A DNA stretch of 10,549 nucleotides from Desulfobacteraceae bacterium (lineage in GTDB: Bacteria > Desulfobacterota > DSM-4660 > Desulfatiglandales > Desulfatiglandaceae), in contig CP070700.1 of the NCBI GenBank assembly GCA_020349865.1, positions 2,120,197-2,130,745 on the forward strand, written 5' to 3'. Of the stretch, positions 438 through 10,549 are shown one piece after another (the stretch's first letter is position 1; each line of letters begins with the position of its first letter). Under the pieces are notes generated by a model. It had not been told where the DNA came from. It made no database searches and saw nothing but the letters and a program-made list of their open reading frames with translations. The translations under genes were made by a program, and so were the position numbers.

Positions 438-1754
438 TCAAACATTCCGAGTAACCATTTTATAACAATCATAATTCCAGTAAAACGAACATGTTGTACT
501 AAAGAGGCTCTTCGTCTTAAAGAATGTCTTTATTGCCCGTTTAAATGAAGTTTTAAGTGAGGCAGCAGCCTTATATGTTGAGATATGTCCCTCTTGTAGT
601 TCTTCTACTGTCATATTTTTAGGTTGAAACACAACTTCAAATCCATTATATCTTTTCCAATCCTTTGGATAGTCTTTTAGGAGCAATCTGCCCTCATTAT
701 AAAGTTGCTCATACAATTTAGTACTTGGAAATGGTGTTTGAATGGAAAATTGAGCAGCATCTAGTTCGGTATCATGTATGAAGTCCAAAGTTTTATTAAA
801 AATATCTTTAGTATCAGTATCATTGCCAAATATAAAACCCCCAACTATTGCAATGCCATTATCATGAATCTTCTTGATAGCATCCTTGAAATTTTTCGTG
901 GTAGGTCGAAGATTGACCTGTTTATTCATCGCAAGTAGTGCTTCCGATTCTACTGATTCAAATCCAATAAAAAATACTTTTGCACCATTCTTGGCAGCTG
1001 CCTGCAGCAGATTATCATTCTCGACGACATTGATACATGTCTGAGCCCCCCATTCTTTACCCAAATCTTTTAATCGTTCAAACAACTGAAACGCATGATT
1101 AAAACACTCCTGACCTGAACCGACAATATTGTCATCTATAAAAAAAAACCGATTCCCTTTCAACATACTAATCTCAGCAATTACATCATTGACAGGTCTA
1201 AACCTATAACGTCCACCATTGAAGCGTGTTACTGAACAAAAGTTACAGTCGAAAGGACAACCTCTGGATGTCTGAACTGTTTGTATAAAATAACTTTTTG
1301 AGCAAAGGTCTCTTCTTGGTATAGATAGGTTTTCCATACTTGGTCTTGGAGATATATATTTCTTCTGTATATTGCCTGCTTCATAATTCTTTAAGAGTGT
1401 TTGCCAGACCTCCTCACCTTCTCCTATTACAACAGTATTCACGAAATTCATAGCTTCTTGACTCATCATAGAAGCATGGATGCCACCAAGAACCACAGGC
1501 GTTCCCTTTTCCCTAAATCGTGTACTAATTTCGTAGGCTTTGGGCGCCAAAGGTGTCATACAAGTGATAGCAACTAGGTCAACATTTTTATCAAAGTCAA
1601 TAATATCGATAGTTTCATCGATAATCTCTATTTCATATTTATCTGGTGTATGGCTAGCTAAAATTGCTAAATTCAAGGGTGGCAAAGAAAGAACCTTAAC
1701 ATTTTCCAAAATATCGTTTTTATAAGACGGATTAATAAACAAAATCTTTTTCAT
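438..1754 (-). CDS. B12-binding domain radical SAM protein
   Basis: The 438-residue product has the two-domain layout of cobalamin-dependent (class B) radical SAM enzymes. Residues about 3-125 look like a Rossmann-type B12-binding domain, with VVLGGIHAS near 87-95 and the GEGE turn at 111-114. The radical SAM core follows, with the CxxxCxxC cluster motif at Cys166, Cys170 and Cys173 and an FFFIDDN strand near 203-209. The region around 375-400, with a Gly-Phe-Glu-Val-Val-Phe-Gln-Pro-Lys stretch, resembles the DUF4070 extension of HpnJ/HpnR/BchE-like proteins. The expected role is S-adenosylmethionine radical chemistry, often methylation or a skeletal rearrangement of a lipid or natural product; the substrate cannot be told. 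No DxHxxG motif is seen. The ATG at 1754 has only a weak purine-rich leader. A half attC site lies about 55 bases upstream, so it may be cassette cargo. Confidence 0.88.
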   Translation of the reverse strand: MKKILFINPSYKNDILENVKVLSLPPLNLAILASHTPDKYEIEIIDETIDIIDFDKNVDLVAITCMTPLAPKAYEISTRFREKGTPVVLGGIHASMMSQEAMNFVNTVVIGEGEEVWQTLLKNYEAGNIQKKYISPRPSMENLSIPRRDLCSKSYFIQTVQTSRGCPFDCNFCSVTRFNGGRYRFRPVNDVIAEISMLKGNRFFFIDDNIVGSGQECFNHAFQLFERLKDLGKEWGAQTCINVVENDNLLQAAAKNGAKVFFIGFESVESEALLAMNKQVNLRPTTKNFKDAIKKIHDNGIAIVGGFIFGNDTDTKDIFNKTLDFIHDTELDAAQFSIQTPFPSTKLYEQLYNEGRLLLKDYPKDWKRYNGFEVVFQPKNMTVEELQEGHISTYKAAASLKTSFKRAIKTFFKTKSLFSTTCSFYWNYDCYKMVTRNV

Positions 1755-1779: not shown

Positions 1780-1814
1780 GCGGTGAGCAAAGCGAATCCG
1801 CTTATTTGTTAGGC
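1780..1814 (-). other. Half attC-like site (left core plus hairpin)
   Basis: On the minus strand a consensus left core GCCTAAC (1814-1808) is followed by a short hairpin with a GCGG/CCGC stem (1798-1801 with 1780-1783). A right core GTTRRRY is not found at the expected distance; GATAATA stands roughly where it should be. It follows a stop codon by seven bases, as in cassettes. I read it as a damaged or partial attC site. Confidence 0.4.
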
Positions 1815-1821
1815 AAAAGAT

Positions 1822-2064
1822 TCACTCCACAAATGCTTTTCTCATTTCTTCCAGATTGTCAAACTATCTCATTTCAGTCCGTTCTCATAGCTTCCCCGCT
1901 AAAATGAAAAAAGAAGGTTGACCCTCAACTCTACCTTCGGGCTTCCTGAAATATGCAGGCTCAGAGAAAAAGTAGCCTGTCCCCTTTTCTAATAACTCCC
2001 CATCTATTCCCCCATCTACTCCAAAGATAAACAACGGTAGGTTCATTGAAAGTGAATTCCACAT
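1822..2064 (-). pseudogene. Decayed short cassette ORF, unknown family
   Basis: From an ATG at 2064 the minus frame runs 59 codons (start MWNSLSMNLPLFIFGVDGG) to a TGA at 1885-1887. The same frame then continues for six codons to a TAG at 1864-1866 and for thirteen more (FDNLEEMRKAFVE) to a TGA at 1822-1824. That last stop lies seven bases before an attC left core, the usual place for the end of a cassette gene. One uninterrupted gene broken by two nonsense mutations is the simplest reading. I do not recognise the family. Alternatively the 59-codon ORF alone is real, or none of it is. Confidence 0.3.
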
Positions 2065-2120
2065 TGTTTATTACCGCCCCGCTCCCCAGCAAGCCGCGAC
2101 AACAACAAAACGGCTTTGAA

Positions 2121-2160
2121 AAGTCAGGAGATAAGATGAGCGGTCTGCTCATCCTGACTT
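2121..2160 (-). terminator. Hairpin after the large coiled-coil gene
   Basis: A two-part stem overlaps the stop codon of the 1114-aa gene: the outer arms AAGTCAG/CTGACTT are at 2121-2127 and 2154-2160, and the inner arms GATGAGC/GCTCATC at 2135-2141 and 2147-2153. A one-sided bulge separates the two parts. On the minus strand the stem ends in a run of only four T, so it is a weak intrinsic terminator or a 3'-end stabiliser. Confidence 0.5.
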
Positions 2161-5100
2161 AGTTGCCAGTATCGGTAAAAAAACGGCCGTCCCTAAAATT
2201 TGACATCTTTTCAAAAACCTTCCACGGCCTGTGAAAGGCATCTTTTAAGCTCAAGCCCGGTCCGAGATCGATCACAATGGACGGTTTGCCAAAATTATCG
2301 GTCCCCAAATGCCAGCCGATGGGTTTCCGGCAAAGGCCGCTCAAAGCCTTTTCAATGGAGTCAAGGTCAATGGGCGTATCCCGGACCAGTTCTCCGTTCA
2401 CTTCCTTGTAATCCACCGGGAAGGGGCTGCCGTCAAGTTTCTCGGGTAATGGCTTGAGCAGGTCGTCCAGGTCCCGGCTCGGGTTCTCATTGCCAAGGGC
2501 ATCCTTCAGTAAAGTGCCTTCCGAATGATTGGGAACAAGCTCGTAACTATGATACGGGTGCTTAACCCGAAGGCAATGATCGTCAAGGTCAAAATCCTCG
2601 TCAGCATCATCCGGCGGCGCAACATTGGCTTCATAATGGTCACAATCCCATGCCCATCGCCTTGCCACCCAGTCTTTATCCTTGCAAACGATAATCGGCT
2701 CGAAATCCCAGGCATGATTGAAGCAGAAATCGCCAATTACGGGCACATCACTGAAGCTCCAGTCCAAAAGGTAGAGGATGCAGTGCTGGCCGGTTTCAGG
2801 GTTGGTCGTCACCTTATAATGAATGGCCCGCAACTCCTTTGAGCCGTAACGGGAATTATCCGGATCAGGGGTAATATCATCCTCGGTCAGCAGAATGCAG
2901 GGCAGGTTGTTTTTCACATGACTGTAAAGCTCTTCTTTGGCGGTCTGCAGGTCCTTGGAATAATCGCTGTCCTGCTGGTCTTGATCGTCCATTGTTCGGG
3001 TTGCGTGGCGGCACATGCGGCGGCATTCTTCCAACAGTTTGTCAAGCCCGGCCCGAATACCGGCAGCCTCTTCCTCCATCTCGCGGACATGCCGGGGGGT
3101 GTCACAGGTGTCATTGGGGCGGAGTTCCTTACGGAGCCTTTGGCTGTCCTTTTGCGCTTTTTCACGGGCTGCTTCAAGGCGTTTTATCAGGGCCTCGATG
3201 GCGGCTATCAGTCGCTGCAGTTTTTCCCGGGACGACTTGGCTCTGGCGATCCACGAACTGTCTAGCAAGCCATGCAGTTCTTTGACCAGTTTGCCGACAT
3301 CCTCAGGCTTGGGGGAGGCCCCCAACAGCTTACGGGCTCTGGCCAGGGCTCGGCGCAGCTTTTGCAAACAGTCATTAAGCTCTTTCAATTGCAGCTTTTC
3401 AATGTGGTCCAGATGATAAACCGTGCTCGCTTTGCTACGTTTTACCTTACGAATGCAATGGCGATAGGCCTGTTCAAGCCGGCGTATAAAGCGTTTGATC
3501 TCTTGTTTCAAGTCCTTCAAGCGGCGGCGGAAACGGCTTATCCGTTTAAGTCTGCGTTTGGCCTGTTTCTGCTTCCGTCGCGCATCTGCAAAGGCCCGCT
3601 CAGCCTTTTGGCGTTCAGCAACGGCCTTGGCCTCCTGGTCTGCAAACTTTTTAGCCCTTTCATTATAGGCCTTGAGCTGATCTCCCCATTTATCCAGAAA
3701 GTCAAGGTAGTCCCTGATTTCGGAATTACCTTTCAGATAAACCCATGTTCCCCCCTCGCTTGTGATGCCCATCGGCCCGACCCCGGCCGAAAAACCGGCG
3801 GGTAGGCCGCCCGGTGCAGGAGGCCCTCCGGTAAAGGCTCCCCCAGGGTGCTGCCGGGCAAAGATATCAAGAAGGTTCTTGATGGCGTTTCGGGCCTGGT
3901 TTTTCCGTTTCCGGGCCTTATCCTCCTTTTCTTTGACCGAATCAAGCGCTTTTTTTGCCTTTTTTTCATCGCTTTTGCCGTCGGCAGTCATCTGTTTCGC
4001 CTTAAGGGCCTCTTGAGCAAGCCCGGCAAGGGCCTTGTCAATTTTTTGCACCAAGGCCTTTAAGGCATTAAGCAAGTCAAGGATAACGCAGCAGTCTATA
4101 CAGTCACTGCTTTTTTGGAGCAGGGCCTCAGCATTGGCTAACAAGGCGCGTATTGCATTAACAAATGCCTCAAAACGCGATGATATTAATCGGGCCCGCC
4201 TTTCGGCCCGCCGCCGCATGGTGGTGCTGCGCCGGGCCTCTTTTTCCTTTTTATTGGCTGCCTTGTCAGCTGCGGCTGTTTTTGCTGCCTGGGCCTGTAT
4301 CAGTTTTCTGCTTGTGGCTTTTACCTTCATTAGGGAGGACTCCACCCGCAGGGCATCGGTGAGCTTGCTCTCCTGGTGAAAGGCCTTTGCTGCTTCTTTA
4401 TAATTATCTTCAAGGTTTTCTCTTTGATCTTTGAGATCATCAAGGGCCTTTTGGGCTGCGTCCGCTTTTTGACGCGCATCCTGTGCGATACGTAGCTTTT
4501 TGGCTTCCTGATCTTCGGCCCGGTCCATGGCAAGATCGGCTTGGGCGGCCTGCCTTATGATCTTGTCCAGCAAACTGCCGAGAAGGGTAATGGCCCTTGA
4601 TATTCTTTGAAATGTTGTTGTTTCACAGGGCAAAGGCATATAATGACGGTGGGCCCAGTCAATAAGCTGCACAGCTTTTGCTGCCGCGTCAGCCACCCCG
4701 CTCAACAATGCAGGTTCCGCCAGGACAAGGCTATCCGTGGCAGCCATTGCCGCGCCAATTGGCAGGGCTTGAATTGCAACCATGCGGGAGAAGGCCTGTT
4801 GAAAAACAGGCTCAACGGTTTCACGGATATCAGGACGCTTTTTGAGTTCTCGCAAAATCAAGTGCGACCCGGTCTCCGGTGTTGCGGTCATGGCACTGTC
4901 CATTTCCGAGAGCAACTGATTCAATTGCGGGGACAGGTCACCTGTCTCCAAAAGTGTTTGGGCCAGTCTGGAGCGCAGTGTGGTAAGCTGCTCAAACGAT
5001 TGTTCAAAGCGGTAAGTCGCTTGATACCAGGCTTCTTCACCGATTTCCCATTCCTTCTTGAGTGCGGCCTCCACTGCGGATGCATGCTCTTCAAGGGCAT

Positions 5101-5503
5101 CAAGCCGGGCTTCCAATTCGACACCAGCAGCCTTGAGGTCCGCATCAAACTGAAGATACTCGATGCTTTCTTCTACCGGAACAAACTCAAATTCCTGATC
5201 AGGATTGAAGAACAAAGGCTCGGAATTGCCTAAAAATTTTGGTTTTACGCCCGGTAGCAGCCCGCTGTCTTCAGGCCCGCCGCCGGTCAGCACAAGCCGT
5301 TCGCCGGGCTCAAGAATGCCTGGGGGTAGGCGAACGGGCTCAGCACCTTCACACCGAATTTCAGCGCCGGTCAGCCGCACAGGGGTGTCGCCTTTATTGG
5401 TCAAAACAATTTTTTCTTGTTCCAGGCCTTTCCAGGCCCCGGAATATTCAGGTTCAGGGGCCACCGGACCGATCACGAACTCAACTCGCACCTTGTTTTT
5501 CAT
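2159..5503 (-). CDS. Large coiled-coil protein with lamin-tail-like N-terminal domain, unknown function
   Basis: The product has 1114 residues and no signal peptide or membrane segment. Residues about 1-110 have the look of a lamin-tail/Ig-like beta domain (IVLTNKGDTPVRLTGAEI, then LPPGILEPGERLVLTGG). From about 120 to 550, and again from about 600 to 840, the chain is Ala/Lys/Arg/Glu-rich and strongly helical, typical of long coiled coils. The two halves are joined by a Gly/Pro-rich linker near 553-586. A cysteine cluster (CIDCC) lies at 468-472. The C-terminal 250 residues are a different, Trp/Asp/His-rich globular region (NHAWDFEPIIV, WDCDHYEANV) that I cannot assign. Start choice is firm: GAGAGGGAG lies six bases before the ATG. 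The gene is visibly richer in G+C than the AT-rich neighbours and much larger than usual cassette cargo, suggesting separate acquisition. A structural, scaffold or secreted-effector role is possible, but nothing in the sequence decides it. Confidence 0.85.
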   Translation of the reverse strand: MKNKVRVEFVIGPVAPEPEYSGAWKGLEQEKIVLTNKGDTPVRLTGAEIRCEGAEPVRLPPGILEPGERLVLTGGGPEDSGLLPGVKPKFLGNSEPLFFNPDQEFEFVPVEESIEYLQFDADLKAAGVELEARLDALEEHASAVEAALKKEWEIGEEAWYQATYRFEQSFEQLTTLRSRLAQTLLETGDLSPQLNQLLSEMDSAMTATPETGSHLILRELKKRPDIRETVEPVFQQAFSRMVAIQALPIGAAMAATDSLVLAEPALLSGVADAAAKAVQLIDWAHRHYMPLPCETTTFQRISRAITLLGSLLDKIIRQAAQADLAMDRAEDQEAKKLRIAQDARQKADAAQKALDDLKDQRENLEDNYKEAAKAFHQESKLTDALRVESSLMKVKATSRKLIQAQAAKTAAADKAANKKEKEARRSTTMRRRAERRARLISSRFEAFVNAIRALLANAEALLQKSSDCIDCCVILDLLNALKALVQKIDKALAGLAQEALKAKQMTADGKSDEKKAKKALDSVKEKEDKARKRKNQARNAIKNLLDIFARQHPGGAFTGGPPAPGGLPAGFSAGVGPMGITSEGGTWVYLKGNSEIRDYLDFLDKWGDQLKAYNERAKKFADQEAKAVAERQKAERAFADARRKQKQAKRRLKRISRFRRRLKDLKQEIKRFIRRLEQAYRHCIRKVKRSKASTVYHLDHIEKLQLKELNDCLQKLRRALARARKLLGASPKPEDVGKLVKELHGLLDSSWIARAKSSREKLQRLIAAIEALIKRLEAAREKAQKDSQRLRKELRPNDTCDTPRHVREMEEEAAGIRAGLDKLLEECRRMCRHATRTMDDQDQQDSDYSKDLQTAKEELYSHVKNNLPCILLTEDDITPDPDNSRYGSKELRAIHYKVTTNPETGQHCILYLLDWSFSDVPVIGDFCFNHAWDFEPIIVCKDKDWVARRWAWDCDHYEANVAPPDDADEDFDLDDHCLRVKHPYHSYELVPNHSEGTLLKDALGNENPSRDLDDLLKPLPEKLDGSPFPVDYKEVNGELVRDTPIDLDSIEKALSGLCRKPIGWHLGTDNFGKPSIVIDLGPGLSLKDAFHRPWKVFEKMSNFRDGRFFTDTGN

Positions 5504-5581
5504 ATCAGACTCCCTCTCTTATTTATGTATGTTTTTTGAGCTATCAGCCCCATTAGCCTTTACCTGTTAAATGAAAAAAAA
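5504..5581. promoter_or_regulatory. Leader of the large gene with a lone attC left core
   Basis: On the minus strand this leader begins just after the decayed DUF6624 gene. It carries ATTTAAC (5572-5566), a sequence identical to the left core of the attC at 5947-5996, but no GTT right core follows within the next 70 bases. It ends with the GAGAGGGAG ribosome binding site of the large gene. I see no clear -35/-10 pair. Confidence 0.4.
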
Positions 5582-5886
5582 TTACCGGAAAGCTTGGTTT
5601 AGTAAAGGCTTCCATCTATTCATGAATTCCTTATCCAGCACCGCATGTTGAACTATTAACCATGCTGCCTCGGAGTCTTCTTTGCCAACTATGCTGAAGT
5701 CTGGCCACCCATATTTATTGATAATTTCCTTAATACGGATATTATTTTCTTTTTATGAATTGCCTTCATTCTTGGGTGGTACTCAGTAGTACCTAATTCG
5801 CCGCTATCAGTAAACTCCTGTAAAACTCGTTGATCTTACTCTTACATTGACAGCAATTCATTTCTCAATTGATGATTCAACGTCAT
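5582..5886 (-). pseudogene. Degraded DUF6624-family gene
   Basis: The C-terminal half, read on the minus strand from about 5737 to the TAA at 5582-5584, is clear: KEIINKYGWPDF, SIVGKEDSEAAWLIVQHAVL. The order (GWP, then VG, then AAWLIVQHA) is the signature I know from DUF6624 proteins, small cytoplasmic proteins of unknown function. The N-terminal half starts at ATG 5886 (MTLNHQLRNELLSM) but is broken by two TAA codons a codon apart just after LLSM. It resumes as DQRVLQEFTDSGE...YHPRMKAIH and needs a one-base frameshift near the AAAAAGAAAATAAT tract (about 5740-5755) to join the C-terminal half. With two nonsense codons and a frameshift it cannot make a full product. It sits directly after an attC site, as expected of old cassette cargo. 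Confidence 0.75.
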
Positions 5887-5946
5887 GATTTCTTTGATGT
5901 CTATCGAAAAACTAACCTGACTTGCGCCCAAATAAAAAGGAGGGGG

Positions 5947-5996
5947 CATTTAACGGCCAGCTAGGCAAGGTCAGGTTGATAGTGCCTTGTTAAATG
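5947..5996 (-). other. attC-like recombination site, short form
   Basis: On the minus strand the left core ATTTAAC (5995-5989) and right core GTTAAAT (5954-5948) are perfectly complementary and match RYYYAAC and GTTRRRY. Between them lies an imperfect palindrome with AGGCA/TGCCT arms. The site is only 50 bp, shorter than most attC sites. The stop codon of the upstream gene falls inside it, a common feature of integron cassettes. The right half shares TAGCTGG and GGCCGTTA with the attC at 9884-9945, suggesting a common host type. Confidence 0.6.
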
Positions 5997-6468
5997 TTTT
6001 TTTAATATATTTTTCTTTTAACTCCTTCTCCACACTATTTGCCGGACAATTAAAATAAATACAACGAGTACATTCATATCTTTTTATAGTCATAGCAAAG
6101 ACAATCCATGACAAAAAGTAGAGAATTAAAAATTGTAATGATTTTAATAGCCAATATAATGGGGGAAAAATAATAATTATAAAACCTAAAATTAACATGG
6201 TTATATCAATTTTACTTAATGGCTTAGGTCTTTTGGGGAAAAATTTAGGAATAAACCATAGAAACATACATTTTGTTGTTTCAGAATCATTGCAGTAATG
6301 AGGGCAGTGTGAACAAAAAAATCTATATTCAAGGATTAAAAAATGGCCAATAAATATTAAAATATAAATAATAGTCCATACTATTGAATATTTCGAAATT
6401 GCAAAACAGGCTAAAAGTAATGGGATAAGACCAAATAAGTTCCAGTATATAAAATCTAACCTTCTATT
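5971..6468 (-). pseudogene. Cys-rich multi-pass membrane protein lacking a normal start codon
   Basis: An ATG at 6267 gives 98 residues, but the same open frame continues upstream to 6468 with clearly coding character, making 165 residues in all. It has two hydrophobic helices (about residues 12-26 and 29-45) and a motif EYRFFCSHCPHYC at 47-59. The PKRPKPLSK segment near 78-86 leads into two more helices (about 90-127) and a second cysteine group, CTRCIYFNC. Paired Cys motifs facing one side suggest metal or redox-centre binding in the inner membrane. It resembles a family of small uncharacterised membrane proteins I recall from anaerobes. No ATG, GTG or TTG precedes the first helix: the frame abuts the TAG stop of the monooxygenase-like gene. 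The N-terminus was therefore probably lost, unless a rare start or stop readthrough is used. The 3' end lies inside an attC site. Confidence 0.6.
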
Positions 6469-6831
6469 CTATGCCGAAGAGTTCTCTCGTCGATTAAGCA
6501 TGCAAAGCGGCTCACCCGCGAATAAAGTCCATTTTTCGGATATCCACTCGGGCTCCACCTCTGAAGACCACTGCTGGTACGGCTTGTTCTCCTTGTGCTT
6601 ATCGAAGGCTGCACGATCTTGATAGGCTTCATACACATAGAAGGCATCCTCATCAGCGGGGTCTGCCCATACGTCGAAGCGGAGCGTCCCATGCTCTTCC
6701 ATGCAGACTTGGCAGTCCCACTTCAGAAACTCGACAAGTTTCTGTCGCTTGCCGCGCTTAGCTTTTACACGGAACAAGATGGAGAATATCGGTTCTTGGT
6801 TTTCTCTGGTATTGTTCCTTTGCTGATTCAT
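6469..6831 (-). CDS. Antibiotic-biosynthesis-monooxygenase (ABM) domain protein
   Basis: The 120-residue product has the ferredoxin-like alpha/beta pattern of the ABM/YgiN family. It opens with a beta strand IFSILFRVKA, then the KRGKRQKLVEFLKW helix, the GTLRFDVWADPADEDAFYVYEAYQD strand-turn-strand, the AAFDKHKENKPYQQW helix and a final strand. Family members are dimeric and include quinol or polyketide monooxygenases, haem-degrading enzymes and many of unknown role; the substrate here cannot be inferred. An ATG eleven codons upstream (6864) is in frame, but AAAGGAGAG lies six bases before the ATG at 6831, which fixes the start there. The upstream attC at 6883-6942 is about 50 bases away, so this is the first gene of its cassette. 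Its TAG stop is in frame with, and directly next to, the following membrane-protein frame. Confidence 0.82.
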   Translation of the reverse strand: MNQQRNNTRENQEPIFSILFRVKAKRGKRQKLVEFLKWDCQVCMEEHGTLRFDVWADPADEDAFYVYEAYQDRAAFDKHKENKPYQQWSSEVEPEWISEKWTLFAGEPLCMLNRRENSSA

Positions 6832-6882
6832 TGAGGACTCTCCTTTATGCACGTATAGTTGCATGCTCTTGCTGCGTTAGCG

Positions 6883-6942
6883 GCATAACAGATTGCTGAG
6901 GGGCCGCGAGGTACGAGCGGCCCCTCAGCAGCATGGTTAGGC
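6883..6942 (-). other. attC recombination site
   Basis: On the minus strand the left core GCCTAAC (6942-6936) pairs with the right core GTTATGC (6889-6883), one mismatch in seven. Inside, a perfect 14-bp stem, GCGGCCCCTCAGCA with its complement, occupies 6917-6930 and 6894-6907 around a nine-base loop. Five- and four-base unpaired spacers separate stem and cores. Length (60 bp) and architecture fit attC well; the lack of an extrahelical base in the stem is unusual. It lies about 80 bases after the transglutaminase-like gene and just before the ABM gene. Confidence 0.75.
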
Positions 6943-7020
6943 CACACATACCGGAACAAGCACGTCAAGTGGTTAATCTTCCCTTCCCTCAAACTCTGAG
7001 TTGATTGTTTACTGTTTTGG

Positions 7021-8391
7021 TTACGGGACGTGATCACATCCGCCGAAATCTGCGATCTTTGCATCCATACGTTCCCACAGGTTGGTGACTTCTAGTTCCT
7101 GAAGAGTGTAATTTCTACTTAATACCTCAAAAACTTCACTGCTGGAATGATCTTTACCTGCTGCTATGTCACTACAATGTTTGTGAAGCAGATAATTAGG
7201 GAGATATTGGATCGCCAATTCACGAGGTCGTCGGCCGATGTTGTTGCAAACGGTATCACTAGGAATACCTAACCCAAACCACTCATTAAACTTCGCTTGA
7301 TTGATGAGGAGTTCACTGGATGGGAATGGTGGTGTTGACTTAGATAATTGATTATAAGGATCATCTCCATGGGAAAGATAGCGGCCCTCCCTGACAAAAT
7401 GTGGCAAAGCATGACCGCATTTCGTTTCGAGTGTCACTGGGATATTTACTGTACGCAAGACAGCGCGCAGGAAACCTGTGGTCCCCCAACACCCGCCTGT
7501 TCTGTGCTGAAGTGGGGAAGACGGGCGCGAAAGATCCTCTGTGCCTTCCAAAACTCGTTTGACCGGGGGAAATCCATAATATTGCCACTGATTGTAAACA
7601 TTCGAAGCCTGCCAGCCACCGCTAAAATGAACTAGATTAGAACGGCACCAGTCAATAATACGTCCGATTGTATCAAGTCTGCTTCTCCCCACCAGATCAT
7701 TGGCGACAAGAAACTCAAATGTTTTTGCCGGATCACCCGGCGTCACCACGCCATGGTCAAAATGAATGGCATAAGTTGCTGTTGAGGCATGCCAATGAAA
7801 CAAAGATCTGCTGTCGAATAAAAGCCTTAATTCTGTAGAATTTAGTTCACCTAGCGACCATATGACATATTGGCGTGCCTCGGCTACAATGCTTTGTGCC
7901 ACATGGCCAATAAATATCGACCAAGCTACAGCCTGTGTGAATTTTGTCGATATGGTTTCATCGCCTGAAGGTGTCACCCCCAGCTGAGGGGGATCTGAAA
8001 TGCCAAGAGAACGACCTTCGAGTAATGCGGCTACTGCATTCCTGAGGCTATTACGCATCCCTGATGACCAGCTTGTATAAGATTGAATGATGCCACTAGC
8101 AGGTTCCCAAAGGATATTATCTTGTACAAAAGGCCGCTCCGATAGCCAGCCGTCCAGGTTGAAAGCAACCTCCTCTTCTCCTACCGGCTCCCGACCAGTC
8201 CAAAGGATATCGGGTCCTTCCGTCCAGTACACAGGCTTCTCATTACGTAAGATGTTGAGAATCAATCGGGCACGAAGTGAATCTAACCCTGTATAAGCCG
8301 ACTCGGTTGCATCAGTAAAGTAGAGGTTGATCCTACACGATCCATCAGTGTAGTTAAGCGCTGTGTAATGCTTAATCTTTTTTACACTCAT
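7021..8391 (-). CDS. Transglutaminase-like protein fused to an N-terminal small repeat domain
   Basis: The 456-residue product has two parts. Residues 1-75 (KHYTALNYTDGSCRINLYFTD, then LRNEKPVYWTEGP) are a paralogue of the whole 77-aa protein encoded just upstream. Around 298-350 the layout is that of a transglutaminase-like cysteine peptidase fold. Cys301 in GGCWGTTGFLRAVLR heads a helix, followed by NIPV, His327 in CGHALPHF, and Asp343/Asp344 in SHGDDPYNQL, giving a plausible Cys-His-Asp triad. Residues 80-290 are unassigned. There is no signal peptide, so it is likely cytoplasmic. Known members cleave or cross-link proteins, but the target here is unknown. The start is firm: GGAGGT five bases before the ATG. 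The preceding small gene ends 50 bases upstream, so the two are probably co-transcribed. An attC follows the stop. Confidence 0.7.
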   Translation of the reverse strand: MSVKKIKHYTALNYTDGSCRINLYFTDATESAYTGLDSLRARLILNILRNEKPVYWTEGPDILWTGREPVGEEEVAFNLDGWLSERPFVQDNILWEPASGIIQSYTSWSSGMRNSLRNAVAALLEGRSLGISDPPQLGVTPSGDETISTKFTQAVAWSIFIGHVAQSIVAEARQYVIWSLGELNSTELRLLFDSRSLFHWHASTATYAIHFDHGVVTPGDPAKTFEFLVANDLVGRSRLDTIGRIIDWCRSNLVHFSGGWQASNVYNQWQYYGFPPVKRVLEGTEDLSRPSSPLQHRTGGCWGTTGFLRAVLRTVNIPVTLETKCGHALPHFVREGRYLSHGDDPYNQLSKSTPPFPSSELLINQAKFNEWFGLGIPSDTVCNNIGRRPRELAIQYLPNYLLHKHCSDIAAGKDHSSSEVFEVLSRNYTLQELEVTNLWERMDAKIADFGGCDHVP

Positions 8392-8441
8392 TCTTCACCT
8401 CCGAAATAAGGCCGAGTTTTCTTTTTTGTATGGGTGAGTCA

Positions 8442-8675
8442 TTAGACACCCTCCTCTTCTCCTACCGGCTCCCGACCAGTCCAAAGAATATCAGGTCCTT
8501 CCGTCCAATACACAGGCTTCTCATTGCGTAGTAAATCCACAAGAAATAAAGCGCGGGCAGAATCGAGGTTGATATAATAATCCCAAGTGCCATCAGTGAA
8601 GTAGATATTTATCCGGGTTGATCCATTCCGATAGTGAAGTACTGTATATTGTTTTATCTGTTTCTTCGTTGGCAT
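8442..8675 (-). CDS. Small protein, stand-alone copy of the N-terminal domain of the next gene
   Basis: The 77-residue product contains KQIKQYTVLHYRNGSTRINI and LRNEKPVYWTEGPDILWTGR and ends shortly after EPVGEEE. It is a stand-alone version of residues 1-75 of the 456-aa protein. The last 26 shared residues are identical, whereas the first 48 are only about half identical. Its size, ending and strong ribosome binding site (AGGAGG six bases before ATG) show a real gene rather than a fragment. I recall similar short hypothetical proteins but no function. Placement directly upstream of a protein carrying the same domain suggests a shared partner, such as a regulator, inhibitor or adaptor. No attC separates the two genes, so they may have moved as one cassette. 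Confidence 0.7.
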   Translation of the reverse strand: MPTKKQIKQYTVLHYRNGSTRINIYFTDGTWDYYINLDSARALFLVDLLRNEKPVYWTEGPDILWTGREPVGEEEGV

Positions 8676-8734
8676 GACAAACCTCCTTATTAATTGTTTA
8701 GTCTAATGTCATAGAACAAGTTAGAAGATTTTTT

Positions 8735-9202
8735 CTATTTGTCAGGCACTTCATATGGATAGCAACGAATATCAACATATGCAAATCCTGTCTTTTTCCT
8801 TTTTTCCTGCTCCTCTATCCATCTATTAATACCAATTTCTTTTAGTCTTTTCCCATCCGATAAAAGTGTTGGATATCCTTTCGCTAATACATTAATTCGA
8901 TTACATGGATATTCATCACATTCTATACATATCTCTATTCCTTTTCCTTTTGCACATTTTCTTATTCCACAAAATGGTGGTCCACAATTATCTTTCTTAC
9001 AGCAACATTCAGAGCTTTCATCGATTATTTTATTTAAAAATTTCCAAAAATCTTCAAATCCTGGTATAAATTTCCCCCAGTGTTCACAATCCTCCTTGAC
9101 ATATGAATCCTTTAATTCCTTTGCTTGATTGGGTATTCGAGTATACATTGAACAAAGACCACAGTATAAGACACAGTAAGTAATTAATTCTTTTTTATCC
9201 AT
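8735..9202 (-). CDS. DUF3795 Cys-rich protein
   Basis: The 155-residue product opens ELITYCVLYCGLCSMY, the CxxxCGxC start typical of DUF3795. It continues with Cys39, a Cys66-68 cluster, CGPPFCGIRKC (73-83) and ICIECDEYPC (91-100). These cysteines suggest a bound metal or iron-sulfur cluster; DUF3795 proteins are widespread in anaerobes and have no established role. No signal peptide or membrane segment is present. The C-terminal third (KRLKEIGINRWIEEQEKRKK) is a charged helix, as in the family. The ATG at 9202 is preceded closely by GAGG in a GTTAGAGG context, which may be the right core of a degenerate attC, so the gene would sit at the very start of its cassette. Confidence 0.85.
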   Translation of the reverse strand: MDKKELITYCVLYCGLCSMYTRIPNQAKELKDSYVKEDCEHWGKFIPGFEDFWKFLNKIIDESSECCCKKDNCGPPFCGIRKCAKGKGIEICIECDEYPCNRINVLAKGYPTLLSDGKRLKEIGINRWIEEQEKRKKTGFAYVDIRCYPYEVPDK

Positions 9203-9206
9203 TTTC

Positions 9207-9270
9207 CTCTAACGGGCTCATGATCGGCGTGGGAGTGCCGCAGGATTTTCCTAGTCGGTGTCCATGAGCA
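9207..9270 (-). other. Degenerate attC-like palindrome
   Basis: On the minus strand GTTAGAG (9213-9207) resembles a right core. Exact arms GCTCATG/CATGAGC lie at 9263-9269 and 9216-9222, with a smaller AGGA/TCCT hairpin in the centre. The left core expected near 9271-9278 is not recognisable (CTGCCCT). It sits between the beta-barrel and DUF3795 genes, where an attC is expected. Confidence 0.4.
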
Positions 9271-9332
9271 GGGCAGAAACATCATTGAAAAACTACAGCA
9301 AAGGTAAAACCAAATAGCCAAAAATCATAATC

Positions 9333-9848
9333 TCAGCCCTCAGTGGTAATAAAGTATTTCCCTGTAAAAGTGAACCGGGTTGTATCCGTGCCCCAAAAAT
9401 GAATGCCTAGCTCCGGATAGATACTACCAATGACGTTATCTACAACTTCCTTTTCCTCTCCGAATTCATCAATATAGCCATCATAATCATTATCAATCCC
9501 GTCGTTTTCCGCCGATAAAGTCTCTTCGGAGTAACCTGCAAAAACGCCAAATCCAATAAACGGAGAGAACCTTTTTCCAAAGTTATAACGTGCTCCTAAA
9601 TTGCCTCCTGCGAAAACATCATCTACACTTTCCGATGCCAAAAAAGCAAGTCCAACTCTTAATGAGAAATGTTCAGAGGCATAAGCATATATTCCAAGCT
9701 CACCACCAATAGAGTCAGGATCAGATCGCCCTCCCAATTCAACATATAGCCCTCCTCTATTACTGAAAGTATAAGCATTGGATTGCGCATACACACTTGA
9801 AGACAAACCAAAAAGAAGGGTCAGGAATAATATTGCCCATTTTTTCAT
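9333..9848 (-). CDS. Outer-membrane beta-barrel-like protein with Asp-rich metal-binding motif
   Basis: From the ATG at 9848 the product has 171 residues. Residues 1-22 (MKKWAILFLTLLFGLSSSVYAQ) are a classical signal peptide with cleavage after Ala21. The mature part alternates aromatic/hydrophobic and polar residues in strands (GGLYVELGGR, GELGIYAYASEHFSLRVGLAF, ARYNFGKRFSPFIGFGVFAGY, TRFTFTGKYF), as in small outer-membrane barrels. Near 114-128 an acidic insert, DGIDNDYDGYIDE, closely resembles the Ca-binding MopE-type motif, here with Tyr where Cys is common, and would sit in an exposed loop. A GTG seven codons upstream (9869) is in frame, but it has no ribosome binding site and would hide the signal peptide; AAAGG eight bases before the ATG supports 9848. 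The attC at 9884-9945 lies just upstream, so this is the first gene of its cassette. It ends one residue after a Thr-Glu pair with no terminal Phe, so it may be slightly truncated. Confidence 0.75.
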   Translation of the reverse strand: MKKWAILFLTLLFGLSSSVYAQSNAYTFSNRGGLYVELGGRSDPDSIGGELGIYAYASEHFSLRVGLAFLASESVDDVFAGGNLGARYNFGKRFSPFIGFGVFAGYSEETLSAENDGIDNDYDGYIDEFGEEKEVVDNVIGSIYPELGIHFWGTDTTRFTFTGKYFITTEG

Positions 9849-9883
9849 TAATCTGGCCTTTCTAATCACCTGTTACGCCCATT

Positions 9884-9945
9884 TTATAACGGCCCTCCCG
9901 AATCACGACCAGCTAAGTGAAACCAGGCAGGGTGACTTGTTAGGC
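9884..9945 (-). other. attC recombination site
   Basis: On the minus strand the left core GCCTAAC (9945-9939) is followed by the spacer AAGTC and an inner arm CCCTGCC. The opposite arm GGAGGG precedes CC and the right core GTTATAA (9890-9884). The inner arms pair as CCCT-CC/GG-AGGG with one extrahelical G, a hallmark of attC sites. The length of 62 bp is normal. The right core departs from GTTRRRY, but GTT, the cut triplet, is intact. It precedes the beta-barrel gene and lies about 23 bases from the 60-bp repeat. Confidence 0.7.
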
Positions 9946-9968
9946 ATATATTATTTATGCAATTGTGT

Positions 9969-10028
9969 CTCGAGTCAAGGGCTGGCTTGGTTTTTCTCCT
10001 TCTTTTTTATATGGTATATGACTTAAAA
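9969..10028 (+). repeat. 60-bp perfect direct repeat, right copy
   Basis: This block is identical to 353-412 in the same orientation. On its left is the attC at 9884-9945 (23 bases away). On its right begins the insertion-sequence leader (AGGGTGTTGAAAAAATAG from 10029). No second transposase end or target-site duplication can be checked, because the element runs out of the window. Confidence 0.9.
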
Positions 10029-10068
10029 AGGGTGTTGAAAAAATAGTCTAAAAATATTTAAAAATCAA

Positions 10069-10097
10069 TTGCTTAAGCATGAAAAATCCTGTATAAT
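10069..10097 (+). promoter_or_regulatory. Sigma-70-type promoter of the transposase
   Basis: TTGCTT (10069-10074) and a perfect TATAAT (10092-10097) are 17 bases apart, an optimal spacing. Transcription should start near 10104, giving a leader of about 44 bases before the transposase ATG. Confidence 0.75.
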
Positions 10098-10151
10098 AGC
10101 ATGGATTAGACAAACGAAAATCCCATACTAAATACGGAGGATTTTTCATGC
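10077..10151 (+). promoter_or_regulatory. Inverted repeat spanning promoter and transposase start codon
   Basis: GCATGAAAAATCCT at 10077-10090 and its exact complement AGGATTTTTCATGC at 10138-10151 form a 14-bp perfect inverted repeat. The right arm covers the end of the GGAGG ribosome binding site (10136-10140) and the ATG. The left arm lies upstream of the -10 box, so it is absent from transcripts of the element's own promoter and present only in transcripts entering from outside. Such transcripts would hide the start region, a strategy known from IS10 and IS50. Confidence 0.7.
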
Positions 10152-10549
10152 ATCACAAAAATATCAAATTGATTGTAAAAAAACAACTGAAGAAGCAGTA
10201 TCCAAACTGGAAACGTCTTAGCAGAAAAAAGAAAAAAGCAATATCCAAGAAGGTAACAGCAGAAGTGATAAAGCTATATGATTTTAATAAACCCATTCAA
10301 AACCCAATAGAGGAACTACTTGGCATAGAAGAGCAAGTGCCGGAACCAGGCATGATGAATCTAGAGGAAATGGCAAAGTATATAGACAGATTCAACAGGA
10401 GCAAATTGATAAAGATAAGCAGCCACTGCCGGCATCCCACGTATATCCAGGATGAAGAGTTACGGGTGATAGATAATCTTTTGGATGATCTCATTATTAA
10501 TGAGCTTCTTTCCTATAAGGGTTATACGCCTTCTATGAGGGAAATTTTA
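10148..10549 (+). CDS. Insertion-sequence transposase, N-terminal part (cut by window edge)
   Basis: The plus frame from ATG 10148 is open to the end of the window (134 codons). It begins MHHKNIKLIVKKQLKKQYPN, followed by an extremely Lys-rich helix (RKKKKAISKKV), typical of the DNA-binding N-terminus of an insertion-sequence transposase. It continues PIEELLGIEEQVPEPG and LDDLIINELLSYKGYTPS. I recognise the style from transposases of sulfate reducers and their relatives but cannot name the IS family; the DDE catalytic region lies beyond the window. GGAGG lies seven bases before the ATG, and a good promoter and a start-masking inverted repeat precede it. Its strand is opposite to all cassette genes. 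Confidence 0.7.
   Translation, partial: MHHKNIKLIVKKQLKKQYPNWKRLSRKKKKAISKKVTAEVIKLYDFNKPIQNPIEELLGIEEQVPEPGMMNLEEMAKYIDRFNRSKLIKISSHCRHPTYIQDEELRVIDNLLDDLIINELLSYKGYTPSMREIL

Follow-up and report, generated by a model that had tools for sequence, protein, structure and literature searches.

Whether the run of small, unrelated genes in a 10,549-nt stretch of contig CP070700.1 of a Desulfobacteraceae bacterium (positions 2,120,197 to 2,130,745; hereafter the window) derives from an integron is the question raised by this locus, which the first-pass annotation had described as a gene-cassette array. The gene patchwork at 5.6-9.9 kb was probably acquired. Its single likeliest origin is an integron cassette array whose remains persist with decayed recombination (attC) sites, a plausible and unproven reading to which slightly less than an even chance is given here. 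The earlier description stands as regards the cargo, the layout and the placing of three sites (A, B and C) among the window's top four with two attC covariance models (R1 and R2); on the other side, site A does not fold, site B is atypical, and A and C score at the level of a stretch inside a gene.

Nine genes or gene remnants are found on the minus strand, all pointing one way. The boxes reported earlier are indeed present, on the same strand and in the same orientation as the genes. From the right, the order on the minus strand is the insertion sequence, one copy of a 68-bp repeat, site A, a barrel-like gene, a degenerate site, the DUF3795 gene, the 77-aa gene, the 456-aa gene, site B, the ABM gene, the Cys-rich membrane gene, site C, a broken DUF6624 gene, a 1114-aa gene, a B12-binding radical SAM gene and the other copy of the 68-bp repeat. 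The sites, the genes of the supposed array and one comparison stretch are as follows.

9884..9945, minus strand: site A, boxes GCCTAAC / GTTATAA
9333..9848, minus strand: small secreted protein, barrel-like (OMP_b-brl 16.4 bits, cut-off 28.7)
9207..9278, minus strand: degenerate site, R' GTTAGAG, 7-8-bp stem, left box lost
8735..9202, minus strand: DUF3795 protein, start 4 bases past the degenerate site
8442..8675, minus strand: 77-aa protein, which repeats the N-terminal domain of the adjacent 456-aa gene as a separate copy
7021..8391, minus strand: 456-aa transglutaminase-like protein, invariant C301, H327 and D343
6883..6942, minus strand: site B, boxes GCCTAAC / GTTATGC flanking a fully paired, bulge-free 14-bp stem
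6469..6831, minus strand: ABM-domain (antibiotic biosynthesis monooxygenase family) protein, 14 relatives
5971..6459, minus strand: Cys-rich membrane protein, lacking an ATG start close to its upstream end
5948-5995 (short form, that of the first-pass annotation) or 5899-5995 (long form), minus strand: site C
5585..5886, minus strand: broken DUF6624 gene, open piece covering profile positions 44-95 of 173
3509-3556, plus strand: stretch within the 1114-aa gene, without outer boxes, used as a false-positive yardstick

Genes start 4-51 bases behind the sites, the stop of the Cys-rich gene falls within site C as had been noted, and G+C content ranges from 26.4% to 52.9% among the genes of the window. 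Pfam cut-offs were passed by DUF3795 (40.3 bits vs 22.6), ABM (41.2 bits vs 23.1) and the open piece of the broken DUF6624 gene (30.7 vs 27), bearing out these family names; the beta-barrel match lies under its cut-off. The search with the ABM protein returned only these 14 relatives, which counts for the array, and relatives of distant similarity only were seen in 15 of 185 genomes. No DUF3795 relative was found among 185 genomes, in a search that had no positive control and shows little. At 6459-6469, the membrane gene runs in frame past the ABM stop without a nearby ATG, as after a deletion joining two units.

Reference attC sites were taken from 20 regions beside gammaproteobacterial integron integrases, which pass the curated cut-off in 71 of 185 genomes in the class of the gammaproteobacterium G010. 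Strict boxes with a stem were found 23 times on the array strand (nine of 17 arrays) and not at all on the other. Covariance model R1 was built from 30 sites of arrays beside integron integrases; at E <=1 its 87 matches are spread over 14 arrays and never fall on the strand opposite to the array, and ten control loci yield none (as many as 22 of these 87 are sites from which the model was made; locus L065, eight of whose sites are in the model, is excluded). Beside the integrases of two further phyla (spirochaete G006 and acidobacterium G005), it gives 70 matches of 18.6-37.9 bits in nine of 18 loci, two of the 20 loci being under 700 bases and omitted. At least 25 bits are reached by 75 of the 87 and 38 of the 70 matches. 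Model R2 holds 34 sites: 20 from R1 and 14 others, ten of them from spirochaete loci. The sites in both models come from groups other than the likely host phylum; an attC covariance model for Deltaproteobacteria is mentioned in PMC8352920. R1 is not fully sensitive, since in locus L067 it lists one match, against 33 sites found by the matrix scan, and low scores therefore do not exclude an attC. In control DNA (five of the ten control loci for R1 and five of the ten for R2, plus L119), the best match reached 10.7 bits with R1 (80,868 bases) and 11.5 bits with R2 (89,261 bases).

Site B is the top-ranked place of the window in every scan: matrix, segment, R1 and R2. With R1 and filters off, it scores 17.7 bits on the plus and 15.5 bits on the minus strand (E 0.01), and with R2 20.7 and 18.1 bits, respectively (E 0.0012). 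The lowest listed reference matches, at 16.3 and 18.6 bits, are close to these values, weaker ones being unlisted. Scores of 39.2 and 35.6 were obtained in the home-made matrix scan, where the ten control loci reach up to 33.4 and 100 shuffles up to 31.4; in the segment scan, site B scores 47.2 and 46.8, and 60 shuffles reach 34.1. Such matrix scans are cruder than the covariance models. Folded as single-stranded DNA (minimum-energy, unforced), site B forms a strong hairpin with a z-score of -5.5 on the minus and -6.6 on the plus strand; eight reference sites range from -2.9 to -8.7. The R'' box of sites A and B is the consensus GCCTAAC. Site B was also considered as an intrinsic terminator, which was rejected: it has no T run and is missed by the terminator scan.

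Sites A and C are weaker. On the minus strand, site A scores 14.1 bits with R1 (E 0.075) and 12.1 bits with R2 (E 0.2), and the short form of site C scores 11.6 bits (E 0.3) and 14.3 bits (E 0.051), respectively. Both exceed every match in control DNA with either model, so that the outcome named by the first-pass annotation as refuting its reading, all three sites at covariance background, was not observed. The degenerate site has a fold z-score of -1.2 and is listed by neither R1 nor R2. The left arm of site C carries TCAACCTGAC, the usual L'' motif, which is also found in the attCs of locus L100, and this arm pairs with GTCAGGTTAG at 5921-5912. GATAGAC (5905-5899), which differs from a GTTAGAC box by one base and has the usual spacing, is a candidate R' of a long site C, and the broken DUF6624 gene has its first ATG 12 bases beyond it (5886). 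Judging from these motifs, site C may have been mis-paired earlier, with 5899-5995 as its true extent. The covariance model favours the short form, and fold z-scores are -1.9 (short) and -1.5 (long). The long form would hold some extrahelical bases, but it scores at control level: a segment-scan score as high as its 24.4 turns up 0.55 times per strand in shuffled sequence and 1.07 times in control DNA.

Acquired genes that form an ordinary patchwork next to an insertion sequence and a direct repeat, with no integron history, are almost as likely an explanation as an array. Under this explanation, site B would be an unrelated intergenic palindrome and sites A and C chance pairs of boxes. Several observations agree with it and weigh against a cassette array. 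Four pairs of AAC...GTT boxes (43-107 bases end to end, at least six of seven bases complementary) lie on the minus strand and two on the plus strand; 200 dinucleotide shuffles give 3.96 +/- 1.97. This is chance level, and the paired boxes lose the value as a signal that had been placed on them. Complementary R''/R' boxes (AAC end, GTT start) are present at A, B and C, though at the rate of shuffled sequence. RYYYAAC cores on the minus strand are likewise at shuffle frequency (8 vs 8.8 +/- 2.9), and the two lone left cores pointed out earlier therefore carry no information. In this window, boxes alone are thus no evidence, being about as frequent in shuffled sequence. Site A has no stable hairpin (z +0.2; 109 of 200 shuffles fold equally well or better). 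The stretch at 3509-3556, most probably a false match, scores 13.9 bits with R1 (E 0.081) and 16.4 bits with R2 (E 0.015), between or above A and C, and these two sites are therefore indistinguishable from a likely false match.

Site B is itself unlike the reference sites. Extrahelical bases set the strand used by the integrase. Two to three of them are given among the features of attC hairpins in PMC11641012, and the 14 bp of site B contain none. Among 148 reference sites (those scoring at least 32 of 159, 33 of them from the single array L067), 105 have a left-arm bulge, 18 are bulged in the right arm alone and 25 lack any bulge; in these 25, unbroken helices extend to 8 bp at most, as against 14 bp in site B. 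Furthermore, site B scores nearly equally on both strands, with a slight preference opposite to the genes. Two of the supposed cassettes consist of two and three genes without an intervening site, which weakens the array reading, and no integron integrase lies inside the window. R1 gave no match at E <=1 beside the ABM relatives in 10 loci (those of 10 of the 15 genomes) or beside relatives of the 456-aa protein in 10 loci. The insertion sequence and the 68-bp repeat at the edges also suit a plain patchwork. What speaks against such a patchwork is site B, which outranks all else in the window in each scan, whose boxes match the attC consensus and are spaced as in attCs, and which has no T run marking it as an intrinsic terminator.

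It is improbable that one cassette, carrying site B as the sole attC, went into a genomic site of the attG type outside any integron, a kind of insertion described in work cited in PMC12444791 and PMC11641012. In its favour, only B stands out in every scan, but B is structurally atypical and no second insertion boundary is recognisable.

If the patchwork does represent a decayed cassette array, each unit would have entered as a circle, by integrase-driven recombination of a folded attC with a resident site. Entry as cassettes would account for the single gene direction, the unrelated cargo and the gene starts close behind the boxes. Mutation and deletion would then have erased boxes and fused neighbours, namely ABM with the membrane gene and DUF3795 with the two-gene module of 77-aa and 456-aa proteins, and the DUF6624 gene may have been broken during the same decay. 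Gene content and order, the mixed base composition, the strong hairpin with attC-type boxes at B and the above-control matches at A and C are observed; entry by IntI, the decay and this entire history are inferred.

Compared with known systems, the locus resembles a cluster of attC sites lacking an integron integrase (CALIN) in its several small, unrelated, one-direction genes, in the attC-like boxes that separate some of them at intervals below 4 kb and in the absence of an integrase from view. It differs in having only one strong hairpin and in its two- and three-gene units that no site divides. By default, a CALIN has two or more attC sites spaced by less than 4 kb, as given in PMC9668308 and PMC9024848; the distances A-B and B-C are below 4 kb, but B is the one strong candidate site, fewer than two sites fit the attC structural description, and the window is not classed as a CALIN. 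At the level of the sites, R''/R' boxes, unpaired spacers and a stem at B and the L'' motif at C are attC-like. Unlike the reference matches, which all lie on the array strand, and the bulged majority of reference sites, B is near-symmetric and unbroken, and A is unfolded.

The 77-aa and 456-aa genes share 84 bases at 94% identity in the window, and a 77-aa-type gene stands beside the transglutaminase-like gene in six of 10 other genomes. Transglut_core is matched weakly by 13 of 22 members of the 456-aa family and is absent from the window's own protein. Foldseek with the 456-aa model gave no match at E 0.001, its sequence profile gave none against solved structures, and no plasmid relative was found. 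In the 10 loci with 456-aa relatives retrieved from public genomes, only the 77-aa protein recurs among the window's other genes, and ten neighbour genes from five of these loci share no common theme. None of the ten genomes has an integron integrase over the cut-off; elsewhere in two of them, R1 finds one match (30.3 bits, G007) and two matches (40.2 and 38.8 bits, G010). Over the cut-off, no integron integrase was found in 145 genomes of the phylum of G009 either. In this small sample, the retrieved loci do not support a cassette origin of the 456-aa and ABM families elsewhere.

The outer features of the window are the following.

10029..10549, plus strand: insertion sequence (left part), with a transposase that starts at 10148 and runs past the window end
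345-412 and 9961-10028, no strand: 68-bp direct repeat, copies 96% alike
9950..9978, minus strand: promoter-like TTGACT-17-AATAAT, reading towards the genes, 10/12 match
2159..5503, minus strand: 1114-aa coiled-coil protein (LTD 18 bits, cut-off 34.3)
438..1754, minus strand: B12-binding radical SAM protein

The transposase has 43% identity to a Desulfosarcina ovata plasmid transposase, its sole plasmid match, with an identical GGGTGTT end. The right copy of the 68-bp repeat ends at the start of the insertion sequence, and between them the two copies enclose the entire supposed array together with the radical SAM and 1114-aa genes. The promoter-like match is weak, such matches numbering 16 in the region vs 11.2 +/- 3.8 in shuffles. 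The 1114-aa protein, which probably lies outside any array, has the highest G+C content of the window (52.9%); its lamin-tail and LmuB matches are sub-threshold, and its identification as LmuB (PADLOC, E 7e-11) was rejected, the match being ascribed to the coiled coil. It has no plasmid relatives. Among the 120 relatives listed of 3191, the radical SAM protein has its closest named one in a Thermodesulfobacteriota bacterium (73%); no relative was found in 188 genomes of another phylum, in a search which, lacking a positive control, shows little. Together with the Desulfosarcina match of the transposase, this makes it likely that the host belongs to Thermodesulfobacteriota or lies close to them. 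Positions 1-344 are low in G+C (30.8%) and contain no open reading frame of at least 60 aa fully inside, the C-terminal piece of a plus-strand frame entering from the left; this stretch is perhaps the remains of a mobile element. The window has no tRNA genes and no Rfam match at gathering score or at E 1. Plasmid sequences gave no DNA match to 8,000 bases of it, and the 68-bp repeat and site B gave only short, weak plasmid matches (E 0.2-0.8). Viral contigs held no relatives of the ABM protein (single protein, alignment), the transposase or the 456-aa family, and no copy of a 25-base core from the 68-bp repeat.

It is very unlikely that site B is a working symmetric attC without extrahelical bases, letting an integrase act on either strand and insert cassettes both ways round, in a Thermodesulfobacteriota-like host whose cassettes carry the transglutaminase-like two-gene module; were it so, the site would be an interesting case for how integron integrases choose a strand. 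Integrons have already been reported in the likely phylum of this host, according to PMC9668308. If the decayed cassette array is the true origin of the patchwork, the locus would add one more relic integron for the phylum and an example of what attC sites may look like after decay.

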